From: Natrinema sp. DC36
GTDB taxonomy: Archaea; Halobacteriota; Halobacteria; Halobacteriales; Natrialbaceae
Assembly (NCBI RefSeq): GCF_020405225.1
Contig: NZ_CP084472.1
Span: forward strand, 3,162,001 to 3,226,000
Reading direction: 5' to 3'
DNA length: 64,000 bases
Below are positions 5,385-48,565 of this stretch, in pieces. A program made the translations under genes and the position numbers. The notes beneath the pieces were generated by a model. It did not search any database, was not told where the DNA came from, and worked only from the letters and a program-made list of their open reading frames with translations. Every line of letters begins with the position of its first letter. Position 1 is the stretch's first letter.

Positions 5385-6683
5385 TCACTCGCCGGCGCGG
5401 GCCACCAACGACTCGGCGGCCTCGAGCGCTCGCTCCCGAACGTCCGCTTCGTCCAGCGTCAGCACCTCGCGGTCGCGCATGAGGACCCGGCCGTCGCAGA
5501 CGGTGTGGCGCACGTCGGCCGCCGCGGCCGCGTACGCGAGGTGGCTCACGAGGTCGTGTCGCGGCGTCAGGTGCGGTTGCTCGAGGTCGATCACCGCGAA
5601 ATCGGCCGGTGCGCCCGCCTCGAGGCGACCCGACTCGAGGCCGATCGCGTCGGCGCTGCCCCGGGTCATCGCATCGACGACCGCATCGGCGGGCACCGCG
5701 CTGGCGTCGTCGGCGGCGAGCTTGCCCAGCATGGCCGCGTCGCGGGCCTCGTCGAGCATCGAGAGGTCGTTGTTCGAGGCCGCGCCGTCCGTCCCGAGGC
5801 CGACGGTGACGCCCGCCTCGAGCATGCGCTGAACGGGAGCCATCCCGCTCGCCAGTTTCATGTTCGACGCCGGGCAGTGGATCACGCCGGTGCCGGCCTC
5901 GGCGAGCAGGTCGATCTCCCGGTCGTCGACGTGGACGCCGTGGGCGACGAAGTCCTCGGGCTCGAGGAGGCCGTGCTCTGCGGCGTACTCGAGCGGTCGC
6001 TGGTCGTGGTCGTCGACGATCGGTGCGACCTCATCTGCGGTCTCGTTGGCGTGGTAGTGGATCGGGACGCCCGCCGCTCGGGCTTCGGGAACGAACTCCT
6101 CGAGGTACTCGCTCCCGACGGTCGTCAGCGAGTGGGGCATGAACGCCGTCGAGATCCGCCCGTCGGCCGCGCCGTCGTACTCGCGGGCGATCTCGAGGCT
6201 CGTTCGCGCGTCGTCGCGCGCGGCCTCGCCGTCCTTGCCGACGGTGACGATGCCGTGGCCGAGGCGGGCCCGGAGCCCCGCGTCCTCGACCGCGGCGGCG
6301 ACCTCGGGGACGTGGAAGTACATGTCCGCGAAGGCGGTCGTTCCGGATTTGATCAGCTCGAGCAGGCCGAGTTCCGCGCCGACGCGGACGTCGTCGGGCG
6401 TCAGCTCCCCCTCGGCGGGCCAGATGTCCTCCTGAAGCCACGCCTCGAGGGGCTTGTCGTCGGCGTACCCCCGCAGGAGCGACATGGCGACGTGGCAGTG
6501 GCCGTTGACGAACCCCGGCGTCACGAGCGAGCCCGCGGCGTCGAGCGTCTCGTCGGCGTCGCCCGCGAGATCGAGGCCGATCTCGAGGATCTCGCCGCGT
6601 TCCTGATCGACCAGTACGTCGGCAGCCGTCACCGTCAGATCGGGGCGAAGGACCTGCCCGTCGGTAATCGCAAGCGTCGTCAT
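5385..6683 (-). CDS. mtaD: MTA/SAH (5'-deoxyadenosine) deaminase, amidohydrolase family
   Basis: A 432-residue TIM-barrel metal-dependent hydrolase of the cytosine/adenosine deaminase branch. Metal and active-site motifs are in order: GHCHVAMSLLRG (HxH, ~residues 61-72), IHYHANET (~217), VAHGVHVDD (~247) and LGTDGAASNNDLSM (~295-308). The LRGYADDKPLEAWL segment after the first motif is typical of methylthioadenosine/S-adenosylhomocysteine deaminases; archaeal relatives also deaminate 5'-deoxyadenosine. Substrate cannot be set from sequence. It lies near adenosylhomocysteinase, giving a deaminative as well as a hydrolytic route for SAH. Confidence 0.9.
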   Translation of the reverse strand: MTTLAITDGQVLRPDLTVTAADVLVDQERGEILEIGLDLAGDADETLDAAGSLVTPGFVNGHCHVAMSLLRGYADDKPLEAWLQEDIWPAEGELTPDDVRVGAELGLLELIKSGTTAFADMYFHVPEVAAAVEDAGLRARLGHGIVTVGKDGEAARDDARTSLEIAREYDGAADGRISTAFMPHSLTTVGSEYLEEFVPEARAAGVPIHYHANETADEVAPIVDDHDQRPLEYAAEHGLLEPEDFVAHGVHVDDREIDLLAEAGTGVIHCPASNMKLASGMAPVQRMLEAGVTVGLGTDGAASNNDLSMLDEARDAAMLGKLAADDASAVPADAVVDAMTRGSADAIGLESGRLEAGAPADFAVIDLEQPHLTPRHDLVSHLAYAAAAADVRHTVCDGRVLMRDREVLTLDEADVRERALEAAESLVARAGE

Positions 6684-6748
6684 TGGTGCAGGATTCTCGT
6701 CGGGCGGCCTTAGCCTGTCGATGACCGGTCGCGAGACGAGCCGCGGGC

Positions 6749-6754
6749 TTTATG
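6749..6754 (+). promoter_or_regulatory. TATA-like box of the SpoIIM-family gene
   Basis: TTTATG lies 29 bp before the ATG at 6778, in an otherwise GC-rich stretch. That is the spacing expected for a haloarchaeal leaderless or nearly leaderless transcript. No Shine-Dalgarno sequence is present. Confidence 0.5.
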
Positions 6755-6777
6755 CGTTATTTCGGAAATGTAAGACT

Positions 6778-7425
6778 ATGAACGAGCAAACCCAGCGCGA
6801 ACGTGACCGCACCACCGGCGGCTATCCGCCGCGCGAGGCGCTCGCGGACGCCTGGGACGAACACAGTCGATACGTCGGCTTCGCCGCCGGCCTGTTCGCG
6901 TTCGGGATCATCGTCGGCATCGCGCTGATGGCAGCCGGCTACAACCTCCTCGAGATCATCGAAGAGCTGGTTGGGGAGCCGCTCTTCCCGGATATCGGCG
7001 GGCAGAGCAGAACCGAACTGATGCGCTTCCTGCTCGTCAACAACACGCGGGCGTTCCTGCTATCGATCCTCGGCGCGCTCACGCTCGGCCTCCTGACGGC
7101 CTGGGCGATGGTGTTCAACGGAGTAATCGTCGGGAATGTCGGCGCGTTCGTCGCCAGCGACGTCGGTATCGGCTTCATCCTCGTCGGCCTCCTTCCGCAC
7201 GGAATCTTCGAACTCCCTGCACTGTTCATCGCCGCCGGCGTCGGCTTCCGGCTGCTGTATCGGGTCGGCCAGCGGCTTCGCGGGTTGCGCGACGCGATCC
7301 TCACGAGACGCTACCTCTACCGGACTGGCCTCCTCGTCCTCGCCGGCTGGCTGTTACTCGTCGTCGCGGCCGTCGTCGAGGCCTTCGTTACGCCCGCGCT
7401 GCTCGAGGCGCTGTTTGCTGCCTGA
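6778..7425 (+). CDS. Stage II sporulation protein M (SpoIIM/DUF95)-family membrane protein
   Basis: A 215-residue integral membrane protein from the ATG at 6778. The ORF extends 19 codons upstream, but the TATA-like box at 6749 lies inside that extension and supports the later start. It has about five hydrophobic segments (residues ~25-50, 88-112, 120-150, 153-170, 185-212). The central FLLVNNTRAFLLSILGALT followed by FNGVIVGNVGAF and LLPHGIFELPALFIAAGVG is the SpoIIM signature, including the conserved PHG-x-x-E-LPA motif. In non-sporulating archaea the role is unknown; relatives may act in peptidoglycan-independent membrane remodelling or transport. No operon partner is evident. Confidence 0.88.
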   Translation: MNEQTQRERDRTTGGYPPREALADAWDEHSRYVGFAAGLFAFGIIVGIALMAAGYNLLEIIEELVGEPLFPDIGGQSRTELMRFLLVNNTRAFLLSILGALTLGLLTAWAMVFNGVIVGNVGAFVASDVGIGFILVGLLPHGIFELPALFIAAGVGFRLLYRVGQRLRGLRDAILTRRYLYRTGLLVLAGWLLLVVAAVVEAFVTPALLEALFAA

Positions 7426-7528
7426 CGCAACGGGCGGGAGCAGCGTCCCACCGGAACGTCGGTTAGCCCGCTGTTTTCCCAGTTTTGAAGCGTCTAAACG
7501 GTTGTGAACGGATCGAATCGTCGATCCC

Positions 7529-7536
7529 CTTTTACC
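7529..7536 (+). promoter_or_regulatory. TATA-like box of the DUF4382 lipoprotein gene
   Basis: CTTTTACC ends about 23 bp before the ATG at 7559, a position that would give a leaderless transcript. It is preceded by AACGGTTGTGAACGG, which contains no clear BRE. Confidence 0.4.
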
Positions 7537-7558
7537 GGATGGCTGACTGTCGCTGCGT

Positions 7559-8386
7559 ATGAACAGACAAGCGGTCCAACTGATACTCGTGGCAGCCCTC
7601 GTCGCCATCGCCGGCTGTGCCGGCGGGATGGGCGGCACTCCAGAAAGCGATTCGCCGACCGACGACTCGTCCACCACGGACTCGAGCGATGGCGGGATGG
7701 GGACGGCCGCGTTCTACGTCAGCGACGACCCGAGCGTGATCGACGATTTCCAGCATCTCAACGTGACGATTACGAAGGTCGGATTCAAGCGAACCGGCGA
7801 TCTGAGTGACGACGACTCGAACGAGACCGACAGTAGCGGGAACGAAACTGACGGAGACGACGGGAACGAGTCCGACGATGGCAACGAGTCGACGAACGAA
7901 ACGGACGCCGAGGCAGACGCGGACACCGAGGCGGACGACGGCGCGTCCGACGAGCACTGGGTCGAGCACGACGTCGACAATCGGACGGTCGATCTCACCG
8001 AGCTGAAGGGCGCGAACGCGTCCATGATCGACGAGTTCGAGTTGCCGGCCGGCGACTACGAGAAAGTCTTCATCTACGTCAGCGACACCGAGGGGATCCT
8101 GACCGACGGGAGCGAGACGACAGTGAAACTGCCGAGCAACAGGCTCCAGATCAACTCGAAGTTCACCATCGGCGACGGCGATCGGGTCGACTTCGTCTAC
8201 GATATTGCGCCCCACAAGGCCGGTAACAGCGGGAAGTACATCCTCAAGCCGGTGATCAGTCAGAGCGGCACCGGTGACGATGTCGAAATTCGCGACGTCG
8301 ACAAGGAGAAAAACGACGACGACGAGAAAGCCGACAAACAGCGCGGCAACGAGAACGACGGCGAGAAGCGGGCCGAAGCGGCGTAA
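7559..8386 (+). CDS. DUF4382-type surface lipoprotein
   Basis: The 275-residue product begins with a hydrophobic signal and a lipobox (VAIAGC, Cys ~21), so it is probably lipid-anchored outside the membrane. A Ser/Thr/Asp linker precedes a beta-sandwich of the DUF4382 type. The strand GTAAFYVSDDPSVIDDFQHL opens it, and the pair VDLTELKGANASMIDEFELP and AGDYEKVFIYVSDTEG closes it. A ~50-residue Asp/Glu/Asn/Ser-rich insert splits the domain between residues ~82 and 135. The tail (residues ~245-275) is highly charged. Function is unknown; the family is common on archaeal and bacterial cell surfaces. Confidence 0.8.
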   Translation: MNRQAVQLILVAALVAIAGCAGGMGGTPESDSPTDDSSTTDSSDGGMGTAAFYVSDDPSVIDDFQHLNVTITKVGFKRTGDLSDDDSNETDSSGNETDGDDGNESDDGNESTNETDAEADADTEADDGASDEHWVEHDVDNRTVDLTELKGANASMIDEFELPAGDYEKVFIYVSDTEGILTDGSETTVKLPSNRLQINSKFTIGDGDRVDFVYDIAPHKAGNSGKYILKPVISQSGTGDDVEIRDVDKEKNDDDEKADKQRGNENDGEKRAEAA

Positions 8387-8625
8387 ACTCGAGCACCGGT
8401 CAGTCAGCCGCCGACCTGCACGCAGTTTACGGAGTCGATCGGCCGGCCGGTAGCACTTGATTCAGTTATCGGTCGCTCCCCCTGACTCTATTCCTATCAA
8501 GTCCGAGATGATCACGATACCGTGAGTTAAGTGACTAGGTACCGATTATATCGGAGTATGGATGCTTCGAATCAATCTCTATCGGTCAAACCACCACTTG
8601 TGTCCTGCTCCATCCGGGTGACAAA

Positions 8626-9630
8626 ATGAGCCGATCCGGAGGCTGGCGAGGGTGGTTCCCGGACCCGTCAGGGAGACGTGGCGTCAGCCTGGTACAATGG
8701 CTACTCTTGGAGGGGAATCGGCATGCCGTCACCGGGGCGCTTCTCACGATGACGTTCGTCGCTATCCTCGCAATTGGCACGATTTGGCCGTTCGAAATGC
8801 AACGACTCCTCACCGAGACCGCTGCCGTCGAGACGGTTCTCAACACCTTTCTGGGAGGGATTATCCTGCTTGTCTCGATCGTCGTATCGATCAACTCAAT
8901 CGTCCTATCATACGATATTATTTCTATCGGTGCACAGGAAGATCGTCTTCGAGGCACGCTAGAATTCCGCCGCGAAATAGGTCATCTGACAGACACCGAG
9001 CATAGCATCATGGACCCGGCTTCATTCCTCTCTATGATGGTCGGAGTTATCAACCAGCGAGCACACGAGTTAGAGACGGTTACAGAGGAACTTGACGGAA
9101 GGGATGCCGAGGAAATCAGAGAACACATCGAGACCATTCTCCAGACCATCGAATACATTGAGAAGTCCGTTGATCAAACGGGCGGGGGCGAGTTCAGTGC
9201 CCTGTGGCTTGGGCTTGATTTGAATCTTGGCCCGTTGATGGAACGATCGCGTGTATTGCATCTGGCGTATGCGGATGAGCTCTCTGATAGTGATGAAGAT
9301 CGGTTCGAGAGGCTCATCCGCGCGTTCGAACTGATCACGACCGGACGCCATTTTTTCACGACGTTGTATTATAGACGGGAGTTCTCAATGTTGTCACGCA
9401 CGCTCTTAATCGTCTCACTCCCAGCTATCTTGGGAACCGCAACCACGATTCTGGCTATAAACGCGAACATCCTCCCGCAAATATGGATATTTGGCCTCTC
9501 ACCGCTCCTGACTTTTGTGGCCGCCGCGTTCACGACCGCTCTGGCACCGTTTATTATCCTCACCGCCTATATGCTCAGAGTGGCGACCGTCACTCTGCGA
9601 GCCACCGCTACAGAGCCGTTTGTACTCTAG
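8626..9630 (+). CDS. Uncharacterised four-TM membrane protein
   Basis: A 334-residue protein I do not recognise. Two hydrophobic segments lie near the N-terminus (~residues 37-57 and 73-100) and two near the C-terminus (~258-285 and 290-322), enclosing a ~150-residue soluble, Glu-rich helical domain (HELETVTEELDGRDAEEIRE and on) that may be coiled. The layout suggests a membrane protein with a cytoplasmic helical sensor or scaffold. Base composition is visibly less GC-rich than the flanking housekeeping genes, with more A/T-ending codons, so recent gain is possible. Start is the ATG after GACAAA at 8626. No neighbour explains it. Confidence 0.65.
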   Translation: MSRSGGWRGWFPDPSGRRGVSLVQWLLLEGNRHAVTGALLTMTFVAILAIGTIWPFEMQRLLTETAAVETVLNTFLGGIILLVSIVVSINSIVLSYDIISIGAQEDRLRGTLEFRREIGHLTDTEHSIMDPASFLSMMVGVINQRAHELETVTEELDGRDAEEIREHIETILQTIEYIEKSVDQTGGGEFSALWLGLDLNLGPLMERSRVLHLAYADELSDSDEDRFERLIRAFELITTGRHFFTTLYYRREFSMLSRTLLIVSLPAILGTATTILAINANILPQIWIFGLSPLLTFVAAAFTTALAPFIILTAYMLRVATVTLRATATEPFVL

Positions 9631-44009: not shown

Positions 44010-45188
44010 ATGAGCGAACGCGCTCCGCCCTCCGATGCCAGCTCGAGCGTCACAGCAGGGAGCGACGAGGAACCAACCCCGCTCGAGTCCCTCGCAGCCG
44101 CACGAAATCGCCTCGAGACGGTCGAGGGCCGCATCGCCGACCATGGAGAGGAAACCGTCGAGGAGGTCGCAACGGCCTACCGCGACGCGACGAAACTACT
44201 GGACGACTACGTCGACCGCGCGACCGGGACCGGCAAGGAGAACTTCCAGGCCTACATCGAACTCGAGGGGAAGTTCGACGGGCTCGTCTCGAGTCTCTCC
44301 GACGACCTCGTCGCGTACGAGGCCTTCGAGGACTCCCTCGAAGCGATCGACAAGCGCCGGCTCAGCGAGTCGGATTTCGAGCGCGCTCGCGAGGCCCTCG
44401 AGCCGGCCGCCGAGTACGCCGACCTGCTCGACAAACGCGAGGCCGCCCGCGAGGAGGTCGCGGAGGCGCGCAAGGCAGCCAACAAGCGCTCACGAGCGCT
44501 CGACGACGAAATCACCGAGCGCGAGCGGCTGCTCGAGCTCGCGACCGCCGATCTCGACGCGCCGGTCGATCGGCTCCGGGAGCCGATCGAGCGCTACAAC
44601 GAGGCCGTCCGCGAGGCCGTACAGGAGTACCGACTCGCGGTCAGCGCGCGCGAGGTGTTCGACCTGCTCGAGCGGAGCGCGTGGTATCCGTTCGTGAACT
44701 ACGAGCAGCCGCCCGACGACCTGCTGGAGTACGTCCGCGGGAATCAGGCCGGTGAGTACACCATTCCCGAGTTGCTCGAGTACGCCGACTACTCCCGATC
44801 GAAGCTCTCCCACTACGTCGACAGCGCGGACGAACTCAAGCGCAACGTGGCGACCCAGCAGACGTACCTCGACGGCATCGACGCCGAGCCGCTGACGGTC
44901 GACTGGCCGCCGGAGTCGGCCGGCACGCTGCGTCGACGCGTCCGAGAGTACCGGCCCTTCGTCGCTCGCGTCGCCGACGAAGACGTGGTCGCGAGCCTTC
45001 GCGAGATCCGTCTCCTCACGACCGACACCGACTACGACCGCCTCCAGACCGCGGCGCAGGCCGTCGCCCGGCTCGACCCCGCCGAACGCGAGCGGCTGAC
45101 CGACGGTCGCGTCGCGGACGAACTCGAGGAGCGACGGGCCGAACGAGAGCGGCTTCGGGACGCACTCGAGGTCGACGATGCTCTGTGA
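44010..45188 (+). CDS. Haloarchaeal coiled-coil protein (DUF7118-like)
   Basis: A 392-residue, highly charged and almost wholly helical cytoplasmic protein. Residues ~25-190 are heptad-rich (EERAEARKAANKR-like stretches, AREEVAEARKAANKRSRALD). A mixed domain follows (~205-300: SAWYPFVNYEQPPDDLLEYV, IPELLEYADYSRSKLSHYVD), then another coil. I recall it as DUF7118. The ATG lies one base after the hisI stop, a tightly coupled pair. SMC/Rad50-like hinge or ATPase motifs are absent. Its role is unknown. Confidence 0.75.
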   Translation: MSERAPPSDASSSVTAGSDEEPTPLESLAAARNRLETVEGRIADHGEETVEEVATAYRDATKLLDDYVDRATGTGKENFQAYIELEGKFDGLVSSLSDDLVAYEAFEDSLEAIDKRRLSESDFERAREALEPAAEYADLLDKREAAREEVAEARKAANKRSRALDDEITERERLLELATADLDAPVDRLREPIERYNEAVREAVQEYRLAVSAREVFDLLERSAWYPFVNYEQPPDDLLEYVRGNQAGEYTIPELLEYADYSRSKLSHYVDSADELKRNVATQQTYLDGIDAEPLTVDWPPESAGTLRRRVREYRPFVARVADEDVVASLREIRLLTTDTDYDRLQTAAQAVARLDPAERERLTDGRVADELEERRAERERLRDALEVDDAL

Positions 45189-45272: not shown

Positions 45273-46718
45273 CTACTTTTGCCGATCATTGAACTCCATT
45301 GCCGTCTCGGCGTCAATATCAGGAACGGTAGCACCGATAGCCAGCGGAAATGCGGCGGTTTCGACCCGTAGCGTCGAAAGACGGTGACGACGCTGAAAGA
45401 AAGACTGCGAGATGGTGTGCTGTTGAATGTTCTCGTAGCGAAGAACGTATTCCCGCCGTCGCCAGAATCCGCTGCGGATATAGAGGTGATCCGCCCCGAA
45501 TGTATACGAAATACTGGCCCACCGAACGTGGGCCGCAACCGGGACGAGCGCCACCGGGAGGAGAGACACGGAGAGCGGAATTGCTGTAATCGCCGGAACG
45601 ACGCGACGGCCGAGAACCGACACCGCGACGGCTAGCAAGACGAACAGAAGATACCGAACGAAATACCGCCGGCGTGCGCGTATTGGTGTCTTCTCCCTCC
45701 CGTCAAAGTCGACTGAGACGACCTGACTCGCTATTTCGTCGATATCCTCCCGTCGTGCCAGCGGAACGAGCGTCGTCCTCGAGTTAAACGGCATCATGTC
45801 GCTTCCGCCTGCAGTCTGCACGTCGAGTTCGGCCCAGCCGAGTATTCGAAGAATTGGATTGTCACTACGCCGGACGATCTGCACGTTTGCGATAGGAATC
45901 TCGTCCTCGACTCGACTAATGAGTCCGTGACGTCTATAGAGCGTCCCTCCGTCGCGGAATAACTGGAAGCCATACATTCGGACGGCCGACCGGACGACAC
46001 CGACGGCCCATCCCACACTGACCGCGAGAAGGACCAGTATCCCCCACTGTGACAGTCCGGCTCCGAATGGGAGGGTCGATCGGACGGACGCGACGACGAG
46101 AGCGGTGACCGAAGCCGAAGTCTCGACGGGAAGGAGTGCAACTGAGATGACGGTTCCAACGGCAAGTATCACTACTGCGTAATGGCTCTGTAGCAAGCTG
46201 TATCCGATTACTTGGCGAAATGAGAGGCTGTACAATTGCTTCTCAGCCGAATGGATATTATCTCGTCGGTCGAGGCGGCCCGATTCGAGCGTTTTCCGGA
46301 GTCGGGTTGCCGTAGCCGGAGAGATATATCGGAGTTCGACCTCACTTTCGTCGTTCGCTCCTGCCGTTTCACAATAGAGCCCGGTAACACCAAACAATCG
46401 GCTGGCAGGGGATTCTAAAAGCCGTACACACTCGATTTGATCGAACGGGACCGTCCGGTGACGACGACGAAGCACGCCGGAACTGACAGTGATATCGCCA
46501 GTCTCTTTGACAGTATACGTGAACCGGGACCAGTGGAGTGCTTCCCAAAGTGTGACCACAAGGAAGTACAGTACCAAAAACGGCAAGAGATAGCGGAGAT
46601 TCCGAACTCCGCCCTGATACACGAACATACCGCCAGTAACCACGATTATCGATCCCTTCATATCATCGATGGCACGGCAGACGATAGAAGCGATATGAAG
46701 TCTCGAGTTACCGGCCAT
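45273..46718 (-). CDS. YdbT-like membrane protein with three PH (bPH2/DUF304) domains
   Basis: A 481-residue protein from the ATG at 46718, overlapping the upstream YdbS-like gene by 11 bp; the longer frame overlaps it too far. Three bacterial PH domains are visible: ~70-150 (DITVSSGVLRRRHRTVPFDQ), ~265-340 (GTLYRRHGLISRVEDEIPIA) and ~415-475 (LYIRSGFWRRREYVLRYENI). Each is preceded by paired TM helices (~40-60, ~165-190, ~215-240, ~350-400). In Bacillus the ydbST pair, under sigma-W control, helps resist antimicrobials from related bacilli. That precedent, with the halocin-like gene close by, suggests envelope protection (inference). The gene is less GC-rich than its neighbours. Confidence 0.85.
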   Translation of the reverse strand: MAGNSRLHIASIVCRAIDDMKGSIIVVTGGMFVYQGGVRNLRYLLPFLVLYFLVVTLWEALHWSRFTYTVKETGDITVSSGVLRRRHRTVPFDQIECVRLLESPASRLFGVTGLYCETAGANDESEVELRYISPATATRLRKTLESGRLDRRDNIHSAEKQLYSLSFRQVIGYSLLQSHYAVVILAVGTVISVALLPVETSASVTALVVASVRSTLPFGAGLSQWGILVLLAVSVGWAVGVVRSAVRMYGFQLFRDGGTLYRRHGLISRVEDEIPIANVQIVRRSDNPILRILGWAELDVQTAGGSDMMPFNSRTTLVPLARREDIDEIASQVVSVDFDGREKTPIRARRRYFVRYLLFVLLAVAVSVLGRRVVPAITAIPLSVSLLPVALVPVAAHVRWASISYTFGADHLYIRSGFWRRREYVLRYENIQQHTISQSFFQRRHRLSTLRVETAAFPLAIGATVPDIDAETAMEFNDRQK

Positions 46719-47238
46719 CGTCCGAACCCCCTTGGCAACTGCCTTTGAGTGCACTCGCGTCGCTTGCAGTGAGCCCAGGAACGACCAGACTCGAGTGCGG
46801 TGAGCCGGCAGTGTGAATAACGAGCCGTGAGAGTCCGAACAACCGCTCGAGCGGTCGTGCTTCGACATCAATGTGTTGAATCTGTTTATAGGGCACGAAC
46901 GTCTTTTTCTTCCGGAGAACACCACGTTGGAGGAGCAGTTCCTCGTCTCGAATCGCTACGTCCCACGACCGATATCGAAACCAGCTGTAGATGAGGCCGC
47001 TACCGGAGAAGAGTACGATGGCGGTAGTTCCGGTCGTCGAAACGGGATCGAAACCCGACCACAGAACGTACAGTGCTCCCCAAGCAGCGATAGCGAGTAA
47101 AAGCACATAAATCGTCCAGACGTAGAGTATTCGTCGGTTCAACCGGATCATAGTCTGTTTGGAACTGATGGCACGAGCACGATGTCGTCGAGTTTCCTCG
47201 TCCCTGATCGTCGTTCTATACGTAATTTCCTTTCCCAT
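46708..47238 (-). CDS. YdbS-like membrane protein with one PH domain
   Basis: A 176-residue protein with two adjacent TM helices (~38-60 and ~68-88) followed by one bPH2 domain (~90-165: VAIRDEELLLQRGVLRKKKT, FVPYKQIQHIDVEARPLERL, FGLSRLVIHTAGSPHSSLVV). This is the classical YdbS layout, and it pairs with the YdbT-like gene whose start overlaps its end. It diverges from the small membrane protein at 47277 across a 38 bp promoter, so both may be switched together. Confidence 0.87.
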   Translation of the reverse strand: MGKEITYRTTIRDEETRRHRARAISSKQTMIRLNRRILYVWTIYVLLLAIAAWGALYVLWSGFDPVSTTGTTAIVLFSGSGLIYSWFRYRSWDVAIRDEELLLQRGVLRKKKTFVPYKQIQHIDVEARPLERLFGLSRLVIHTAGSPHSSLVVPGLTASDASALKGSCQGGSDDGR

Positions 47239-47276
47239 GTTTTATTATCTGAGGCGAAGGAATATATCTTGTGGTT
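47239..47276. promoter_or_regulatory. 38-bp divergent promoter between the ydbS-like gene and a small membrane gene
   Basis: Only 38 bp separate the two start codons. TTTATTAT (about 47241-47248) lies ~29 bp before the plus-strand ATG, and on the minus strand GATATATTCC lies ~27 bp before the ydbS-like ATG. The two promoters therefore overlap each other's start sites, giving leaderless messages that a single regulator could control. Confidence 0.5.
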
Positions 47277-47618
47277 ATGGTTGATACGGAAGACAGAATG
47301 TGGAAGACGGCCCTGAAAGTTGGATTCGGAACCGGTATACTGATACTTGTCGTTCTGTCATTGGTTGCTGGTTCTGAAGCGGCGGAAACCTCGCTTCAGG
47401 GCGTCATCCAGATCGCAATAATGGCATACGGAGCGAACGAAGGGCTCCGATACAGGGATCAAACGGCTCCCGCGATAGCGTCCGTCCTCTTAGTGATCGG
47501 CGGTGCGTATGGTTGTTATCTGGCTTGGAGAGGCAACGAGATGTTCACGAATTTCCTATATCTCGGACTCGTTGGGAGTGGATTACTGGGAGTCCAAGTT
47601 CGGGACGTTCAAAAATGA
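47277..47618 (+). CDS. Small multi-TM protein, candidate immunity protein
   Basis: A 113-residue protein (MVDTEDRMWKTALKVGFGTG) with three or four hydrophobic helices (~10-32, ~40-58, ~63-82, ~88-105). It has no match I recognise. It lies between the PH-domain pair, which it diverges from, and the halocin C8-like precursor, with which it converges (28 bp apart). Small membrane proteins in this position often protect a producer cell from its own peptide, but this is inferred from place and topology only. Confidence 0.6.
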   Translation: MVDTEDRMWKTALKVGFGTGILILVVLSLVAGSEAAETSLQGVIQIAIMAYGANEGLRYRDQTAPAIASVLLVIGGAYGCYLAWRGNEMFTNFLYLGLVGSGLLGVQVRDVQK

Positions 47619-47646: not shown

Positions 47647-48513
47647 TCAACAGAGACCCATTCCGGCACAGATCGTGCCGGCACCGACAGCACATCCGTA
47701 ATTATTGATCGCGTCGACGATCACGAAGCAGGCCGCACCGCAAGCACCGTACCCCCAAACGCTTCCGAGGAAGGGAGCGCACGCTTGGAGACATGCATAG
47801 CGGGAAACCGAGCCGGTAGCGCCTTCACAGAGAGTCCCGACGATCGCCGTACATCCGCCACAGCCGAGCGCGTCTTGCCAATCCTGTGCGGATACACCCC
47901 CGTTAATATCCGTTGAGGTGGTGCTGGCCGGCTTCTGAATGGGTTCTTGCTGTATAACCGACGCGGATCCCTGTTGATCGGCGGTGAACGTCTTCTGTTC
48001 GAGTCTGCCCGTCGAGTTCGAAGCCACAGAGACTCCCTGGCCTGTAGTCAGCGGTTCGACCGTCCGTCCAAACGCCATCATCGGCTCTCTCGTACTCGTT
48101 TCCGCGTCCGGAGTCGTATCGACGACGATAGAGAATAGTATTCCGGCGGACCCCTGTTGGGGGCGGTTGGACTGGTACCCGCTGAAGATGATCACTGGGT
48201 CTGTCTTGTTTATTTCCGGATCGTCCGTCTCGAACGCGATCCCAAACTGGCCGGCAGCCTCAACGTTCGACTCCGTTCGCATCGCGTTATCGATGTTCTT
48301 GGCTGCTGACGAGTCCAGTACGTAACTGAGTTCTTTTCGCGCCTCGGATTCCGAAATCTCAGTTCTGCTCACGATCTCGAAATCGGGTGTGTCGTCCTCT
48401 GCAGCGACGGTGTTCGACATGGAACCGAGCGTTACGGAAGCCGCACTTGCCGCGGCAGCGTTCCTGAGCAATCGACGCCGGCTGAACCTGTTATTGTTCG
48501 GATCTTCAGTCAT
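47647..48513 (-). CDS. Halocin C8-like precursor (Tat-exported peptide antibiotic)
   Basis: A 288-residue precursor from the ATG at 48513 (an upstream in-frame GTG at 48534 would give 295). The twin-arginine signal (FSRRRLLRNAAAASAASVTL) ends near TVAA-EDD. The middle (~35-195) is polar and could correspond to the HalI immunity part of ProC8. The last ~72 residues are Gly/Ala/Cys-rich with ten cysteines, opening LGCGGCTAIVGTLC and ending ICAGMGLC. Halocin C8 (from memory) likewise opens GCSAC and ends AGLC with ten cysteines, and comes from a ~283-residue Tat precursor. Processing, disulfides and activity are inferred. The AT-rich upstream region and weaker GC content hint at transfer. Confidence 0.88.
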   Translation of the reverse strand: MTEDPNNNRFSRRRLLRNAAAASAASVTLGSMSNTVAAEDDTPDFEIVSRTEISESEARKELSYVLDSSAAKNIDNAMRTESNVEAAGQFGIAFETDDPEINKTDPVIIFSGYQSNRPQQGSAGILFSIVVDTTPDAETSTREPMMAFGRTVEPLTTGQGVSVASNSTGRLEQKTFTADQQGSASVIQQEPIQKPASTTSTDINGGVSAQDWQDALGCGGCTAIVGTLCEGATGSVSRYACLQACAPFLGSVWGYGACGAACFVIVDAINNYGCAVGAGTICAGMGLC

Positions 48514-48565
48514 TGTCTGCAGATAGTCATTCACTTTATCAATTATTGAATTATTCCTATTTTCT

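Follow-up and report, generated by a model that had tools for sequence, protein, structure and literature searches.

A small membrane protein gene of an unclassified family convergent with a halocin C8-like gene in Natrinema sp. DC36

RESULTS

The locus and its genes

The window analyzed here is a stretch of 64,000 nucleotides from Natrinema sp. DC36, within which a short open reading frame lies between a pair of genes for bacterial PH-like (bPH_2) membrane proteins and a gene for a halocin C8-like precursor. The features of the locus are as follows.

44010-45188, plus strand: gene for a 392-aa protein, a conserved chromosomal flank gene that is followed by a UspA-family gene in most relatives.
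45273-46718, minus strand: YdbT-like protein with three bPH_2 stretches (141.3 bits); its start was inferred by eye from the G056 orthologue.
46708-47238, minus strand: YdbS-like bPH_2 membrane protein (61.7 bits), divergent from the small gene at 38 bp.
47239-47276, no strand: divergent intergenic stretch with A+T-rich putative TATA-like elements in both directions, identified by eye.
47277-47618, plus strand: gene for a 113-aa membrane protein with three or four predicted helices, the feature under study (open reading frame, hydropathy, AlphaFold2).
47647-48534, minus strand: halocin C8-like precursor of 295 aa (TIGR04449, 31.9 bits), convergent with the small gene across a gap of 28 bp.

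The small gene is open from an ATG at 47277 to a stop at 47618, and an alternative GTG start at 47271 would give a protein of 115 aa. Hydropathy in a 19-residue window exceeds 1.0 at approximately residues 7 to 44, 61 to 86, and 88 to 111, so that the 113-aa product carries three hydrophobic stretches and is classed here as a small membrane protein. The first of these is long enough for two helices, and AlphaFold2 places four (residues 2 to 31, 34 to 56, 63 to 85, and 88 to 112) at low confidence (mean pLDDT 59.6). The reading frame, its length, and its spacing from the YdbS-like start and the halocin end were thus as the earlier note had described them, and its count of three or four short helices agrees with both predictions.

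That note had recognized no family for the protein, and none was found here: searches of Pfam and NCBIfam returned no match at an E value of ≤1. All five family members described below were likewise without a match in PHROGs and PADLOC (E ≤ 0.1). When Pfam was searched with the five members up to an E value of 10, three families appeared, each with one member only (best E value, 0.054), and the window protein matched none. The 113-aa protein represents a new, unclassified family, having no match in any of the four collections. Membership in the TMEM14 (Tmemb_14) family was considered and rejected, as the A2 profile matched TMEM14A in one direction only, through the C-terminal part of the small protein (63 positions; E = 0.15, not significant), and a reciprocal PF03647 search of five genomes (E ≤ 10) did not return the gene. 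Kinship with proteins of 120 to 132 aa that lie beside other halocins was also rejected, at an hhalign probability of 0.6%.

The neighbors likewise bear out the earlier description. In the precursor, residues 224 to 294 match TIGR04449 (halocin_C8_dom) above its curated cutoff of 24 bits, and 10 cysteines fall within the last 90 residues. Its N terminus has a twin-arginine stretch that scores 21.7 bits with the TIGR02811 TAT model, under the cutoff of that model. The N-terminal region of the precursor belongs, by single linkage and profile comparison, to the same family as those of three 283-aa precursors (L055 to L057), although the N-terminal regions of L010 and L055 gave no direct pairwise match at an E value of ≤1e-3. 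With one and three bPH_2 stretches, the two adjacent membrane proteins on the other side of the small gene form a YdbS/YdbT pair. The island has a G+C content of 0.515 to 0.575, against 0.68 to 0.70 in the two flanking genes. No ABC transporter is found among the immediate neighbors of the locus, and tblastn detects no UspA-family gene in the window after the 392-aa flank gene.

The genome of the window holds a second halocin C8-like gene (L108; G000:C2:41000-54000, positions 6155-6328 and 6370-7203) at 23.3 bits, just below the cutoff, with a 57-aa two-helix open reading frame 42 bp downstream on the same strand. A third match to the halocin C8 domain, at G000:C1:165983, is very weak (E = 0.45).

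Relatives of the small protein

Among 125 genomes of the family, clear members besides the window protein occur in G056, G055 (Natrinema gelatinilyticum BND6), and G024, with 47 to 54% identity. The distribution is thus patchy, at 4 of 125 genomes with the window's own included. Searching 391 genomes of the class with a profile brought in one more, distant member, in G258 (E = 1.2e-18; 32% identity). The existence of these four relatives indicates that the reading frame is a true gene rather than a chance frame. Selection points the same way: dN/dS is 0.24 to 0.39 for the 7 pairs (of 10) whose dS is finite, values that are rough because dS exceeds 1 in 6 of those 7, and the remaining three pairs are saturated. 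Conservation is concentrated in the C-terminal half, which has the pattern GGxYGxYL...FT...YLxLVGxG.

A profile scan of genome contigs gave 15 pattern matches, of which only that in G055 was confirmed, and a scan of genome contigs with the single window protein gave 458, none confirmed. None of 25 pattern matches in viral contigs, which were scanned for viral carriage of the gene, was confirmed either. Weak matches in G041 (E = 0.009), at a second place in G056 (E = 0.008), and in G066 (E = 9.6e-4) were left out of the set of relatives, as were 24 further profile matches from the 391 genomes with E values between 8e-4 and 0.1. The match in G066 (G066:C1:486007-486192) contains three internal stops and is possibly a decayed copy or a chance match.

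Loci of the five members and history of the site

In G056 the halocin gene, the small gene, and the PH pair have the same order and relative orientation as in the window, with the tail-to-tail layout kept at 54% protein identity. In G055 the small gene stands beside an intact PH pair, with UspA at the place of the halocin. The small gene of G024 occupies the same chromosomal site, with a different, 367-aa gene at the place of the halocin and a YdbT relic of 51 residues (53% identity; E = 6e-9). In G258 it is flanked by two genes that look metabolic by eye and adjoined by a C-terminal relic of YdbT (50%; E = 2e-13). In G024 and G258 only relics of the PH pair survive, and the small gene is still an open frame under constraint. 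The halocin C8 domain is absent at an E value of ≤10 from the genomes of G055 and G258, and the two such domains of G024 both lie away from the small gene.

The earlier note had proposed that homologs lying mostly far from halocin-like genes would speak against an immunity role. On this point the family is divided, with a halocin adjoining the small gene in two of the five members (the window and G056) and not in the other three. The PH pair is the steadier partner, as each of the five small genes adjoins either such a pair or a remnant of YdbT.

All 29 genomes of the genus carry the 392-aa flank gene, and the site was read in 20 of the 26 genus genomes besides the window, G055, and G056. No small gene, PH pair, or halocin was detected in these 20 fetched stretches (tblastn, E ≤ 1e-3; PH matches above 1e-4 dropped). 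UspA stands beside the 392-aa gene in 16 of them, a UspA remnant in one (G053), and neither in three. UspA is complete in G055 and G024, and its first 31 residues are missing in G056, where the halocin gene abuts. As UspA is intact in halocin-less G055 and truncated beside the halocin of G056, the halocin may be a later addition to an older module. On the simplest reading of the history, small gene and PH pair already formed a module when the halocin gene arrived and damaged UspA; G055 may instead have lost its halocin by recombination with an allele carrying intact UspA. The two damaged copies, 5'-truncated UspA beside the halocin in G056 (L007, 7277-7573) and the UspA remnant in G053, where no island was found (L188, 2519-2614), are recorded here in their own right, and the UspA site may be a recurrent spot of insertion and deletion.

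Small membrane open reading frames at the 3' ends of halocin genes

The survey set was made up of 60 halocin places (in 43 of 391 genomes), to which the G056 locus was added and from which the G082 locus (domain at a contig edge, no open reading frame) was removed, giving 60 loci in all. Genes were called with our own codon-usage caller. In the main setting, an open reading frame of at most 170 aa with at least two hydrophobic stretches had to lie within 150 bp of the precursor end. Such a frame is found at the 3' end of the halocin gene in 35 of 60 loci (24 of 41 clusters) and at the 5' side in 3 of 60 (3 of 41 clusters), against 15 and 4, respectively, of 160 background genes. The 3' excess at halocin genes has Fisher p values of 1e-10 and 5e-7. 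Halocins were clustered by similarity, and background genes were left unclustered.

When only the immediate neighbor was considered (≤400 bp, ≤170 aa, at least two stretches), the counts were 26 of 60 at the 3' end and 2 of 60 at the 5' side, with 19 and 11 of 201 in the background. Across three settings, 35, 39, and 40 of the 60 halocin loci carry such a frame at the 3' end and 3, 4, and 3 at the 5' side; for the 160 background genes the numbers are 15, 17, and 30 (3') and 4, 9, and 15 (5'), so that the two looser settings go in the same direction as the main one. These figures are to be read with the knowledge that the cutoffs for length, distance (400 bp; 150 and 300 bp), and hydropathy were set after the neighborhoods had been viewed and that the span for averaging hydropathy went from 19 to 17 residues during the survey. 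Kept in the set were L093 (a wrong-frame open reading frame without cysteines), L063, L098, and L101 (short frames), and L106 (an implausible 706-aa frame).

Of the 35 frames at 3' ends, 27 are on the strand of the halocin gene and 8 (in 4 of 24 clusters) are convergent like that of the window, where the convergent orientation means that halocin and small gene do not form an operon. By hand count the 35 fall into 17 blastp groups, the largest with seven members; the groups were formed at an E value of ≤1e-3, so distant kinship between them is possible. Widening the limits to 300 aa and 300 bp gives 24 groups, including one YdbS-type PH gene and one second frame of a single locus. Even at these limits no such frame is found in 16 of the 60 loci, among them the three with 283-aa precursors of halocin C8 size. 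Pfam searches with a set of 35 halocin neighbors, the window protein and three PH proteins included, gave strong matches only for bPH, the other matches being single and at E values of ≥0.002.

Two groups were searched for in the 391 genomes. A group of 66-aa proteins gave nine matches, seven of them strong; six of these seven have a halocin no more than about 2.4 kb away, the exception being that in G025. A group of 125-aa proteins gave six matches, five of them strong and all adjoining a halocin. Five of the strong matches in either group had themselves gone into the query profile, so what is informative is the small number of copies elsewhere. In many genomes only part of the first-look candidates was scored, and stand-alone copies may have been missed, since the 125-aa profile failed to recover L058 and L075, both of which belong to its own blastp group. 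Three weak matches (E = 3e-4 to 9e-4) come from genomes without a halocin match.

In one genus (g40), three genomes each encode, convergently to the halocin, a member of a group of 239- to 243-aa proteins with two hydrophobic stretches, at L084 (6359-7084), L085 (5325-6056), and L088 (6553-7272).

PH genes beside halocins

PH genes adjoin the halocin in 6 of the 60 loci (4 of 41 clusters): G026 and G075 have one YdbT-like gene there, and the window, G056, G028, and G065 have a pair, which in G065 lies on the 5' side. Such genes are not rare in themselves, with bPH_2 proteins in 115 of 116 class genomes. Their enrichment beside halocins has a binomial p of 5e-5 to 8e-4, calculated from an estimated chance of 0.5 to 1% per locus rather than from a shuffled control.

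In a tree of nine YdbT-like proteins, which has two long branches, the proteins of the window, G056, G055, G065, and G028 form one group, and the G026 and G075 proteins are placed with a PH paralogue from the genome of the window. Because the tree splits the halocin-linked PH genes in this way, the pairing with halocins probably arose at least twice. A single common origin is unsupported, with L064 and L072 among the nine rows grouping with the paralogue.

At L072 (G075, 5506-8880) the halocin is followed by a convergent YdbT-like gene and then by a 66-aa two-helix protein whose group elsewhere lies directly beside halocins. Two more YdbS/YdbT-type pairs of the window's genome, separated by about 4 kb, have no small membrane protein as partner (L109; G000:C1:1070000-1085000).

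DISCUSSION

From what is directly seen, namely, the gene itself, how it is arranged, which relatives it has, and the company of small membrane frames at 3' ends throughout the halocin family, we infer a role in membrane protection. The best-supported reading, which we hold with slightly better than even confidence from sequence comparison, is that the small protein shields the cell envelope from halocin C8-type peptide and is a probable immunity or resistance protein. It is favored because small membrane open reading frames at halocin 3' ends are far commoner than expected. The immunity role suggested in the earlier note gains from this association and is weakened by the three of five members that have no halocin beside them. 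Protection could take the form of cognate immunity to this peptide or of a broader resistance tied to the PH pair. It can be hypothesized that the helices of the small protein bind the hydrophobic, cysteine-rich peptide within the membrane or, alternatively, occupy its insertion site, and that the divergent YdbS/YdbT pair would cooperate by removing the peptide or stabilizing the membrane. The module of small gene and PH pair is probably older than this halocin and could act as a stand-alone resistance. Persistence of the small gene without the PH pair (G024 and G258) or without a halocin C8 domain (G055 and G258) might fit such a resistance gene, and the small protein may be a general resistance factor that predates the arrival of this halocin.

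Other observations count against this reading. The convergent layout of the window belongs to a minority, at 8 of 35 loci. The precursor carries an N-terminal region of the HalI type, the immunity factor in halocin C8, and a separate immunity protein may therefore not be needed; the PH pair by itself could also be the immunity factor. As judged from the state of UspA in G055 and G056, the small gene may have preceded the halocin at the site and served some other function.

One such function would be in general envelope homeostasis, as an accessory component of the complex formed by the YdbS/YdbT PH pair, with the halocin adjacent by chance. The constant company of a PH pair or its relic in all five members, set against a halocin in only two, and the later arrival of the halocin suggested by the integrity of UspA both agree with this proposal. 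We nevertheless regard it as unlikely, since G024 and G258 have kept the small gene with no more than YdbT relics detected beside it by tblastn, since the two other PH pairs that were read in the window's genome lack such a partner, and since it leaves unexplained the small membrane frames of other groups that abut halocin 3' ends. That last association, together with the conservation of the tail-to-tail layout between the window and G056 at the observed protein divergence, also makes it quite improbable that the gene is a mere passenger of an accessory island and irrelevant to the halocin, although the low G+C content of the island relative to its flanks and the patchy occurrence of the gene are what would be expected of a passenger.

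It could further be speculated that the PH pair and the HalI-like region of the precursor give immunity and that the small protein aids secretion or maturation of the halocin. The presence of that region allows for this, and PH pairs can matter for export, as the loss of either DdE or DdF, a YdbS/YdbT-like pair required for the export of enterocin DD14, is described in PMC8657885 as trapping the peptide in the cell. Such a role is very improbable here, given that the precursor has a Tat-like N terminus of its own and that the small gene is kept in two genomes (G055 and G258) with no detectable halocin C8 domain.

Comparison with known systems places the locus in context. The immunity factor of halocin C8 is reported, in the relevant part of PMC11509114, to be the N-terminal part of its precursor (HalI). 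The window precursor is similar in its halocin C8 domain and in the family to which its N-terminal region belongs, and the published case differs in that immunity resides within the precursor itself; L055 to L057, equated with the halocin C8 precursor by length only, have no small 3' membrane frame in our survey. Immunity might be doubly secured, or HalI might be active in only some members. The parts of PMC12893001 drawn on here hold nothing on immunity genes beyond one cited title.

The PH pair recalls leaderless bacteriocin clusters, in which a similar pair lies beside the antimicrobial peptide gene: DdE/DdF for enterocin DD14, ORF2/3 for capidermicin, and Geo6B/C for geobacillin 6, the last two being predicted by the passages concerned of PMC6795431 and PMC10311245 to serve transport or immunity. 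Unlike these, the present locus has an archaeal precursor with a Tat-like N terminus, an extra small membrane protein in between, and no ABC transporter directly beside it. YdbST of Bacillus subtilis, which likewise has one bPH_2 stretch in YdbS and three in YdbT, is tabled in PMC8144471 as protecting against amylocyclicin, although PMC8657885, where it mentions the matter, states that experimental support for a resistance role of YdbT is absent. It differs in its listed target, and the PMC8144471 passages on it name no small membrane partner. Small bacteriocin immunity proteins such as AurI, and SdpI/YfhL as treated in PMC8144471, resemble the window protein in being integral to the membrane and, if the favored reading holds, in protecting against a peptide; no sequence relation to them was found, the window protein being without a Pfam or NCBIfam match.

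More broadly, and more tentatively, at somewhat less than even confidence, haloarchaea may maintain an open, polymorphic repertoire of small membrane families, represented here by the 17 blastp groups, each serving as the cognate immunity factor 3' of a halocin C8-like gene, beside or instead of HalI. Copies would persist as stand-alone resistance, and in the present case a halocin would have joined a preexisting module of small protein and YdbS/YdbT. A paper by Makarova and others (mBio, 2019) reportedly deals with archaeal toxins and the halocin C8 family and may already describe small membrane genes next to those for halocin C8, and for this reason the general 3' rule is not claimed as new.

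In halocin C8, the known example, a single gene supplies both peptide and immunity. If many halocin C8-like genes have a separate, fast-diversifying membrane protein, it would follow that archaeal peptide warfare obeys the bacterial logic of toxin and cognate immunity. Genomes could then serve to predict resistance, and the recurrent pairing with YdbS/YdbT would provide a testable link between archaea and bacteria in protection against peptides.
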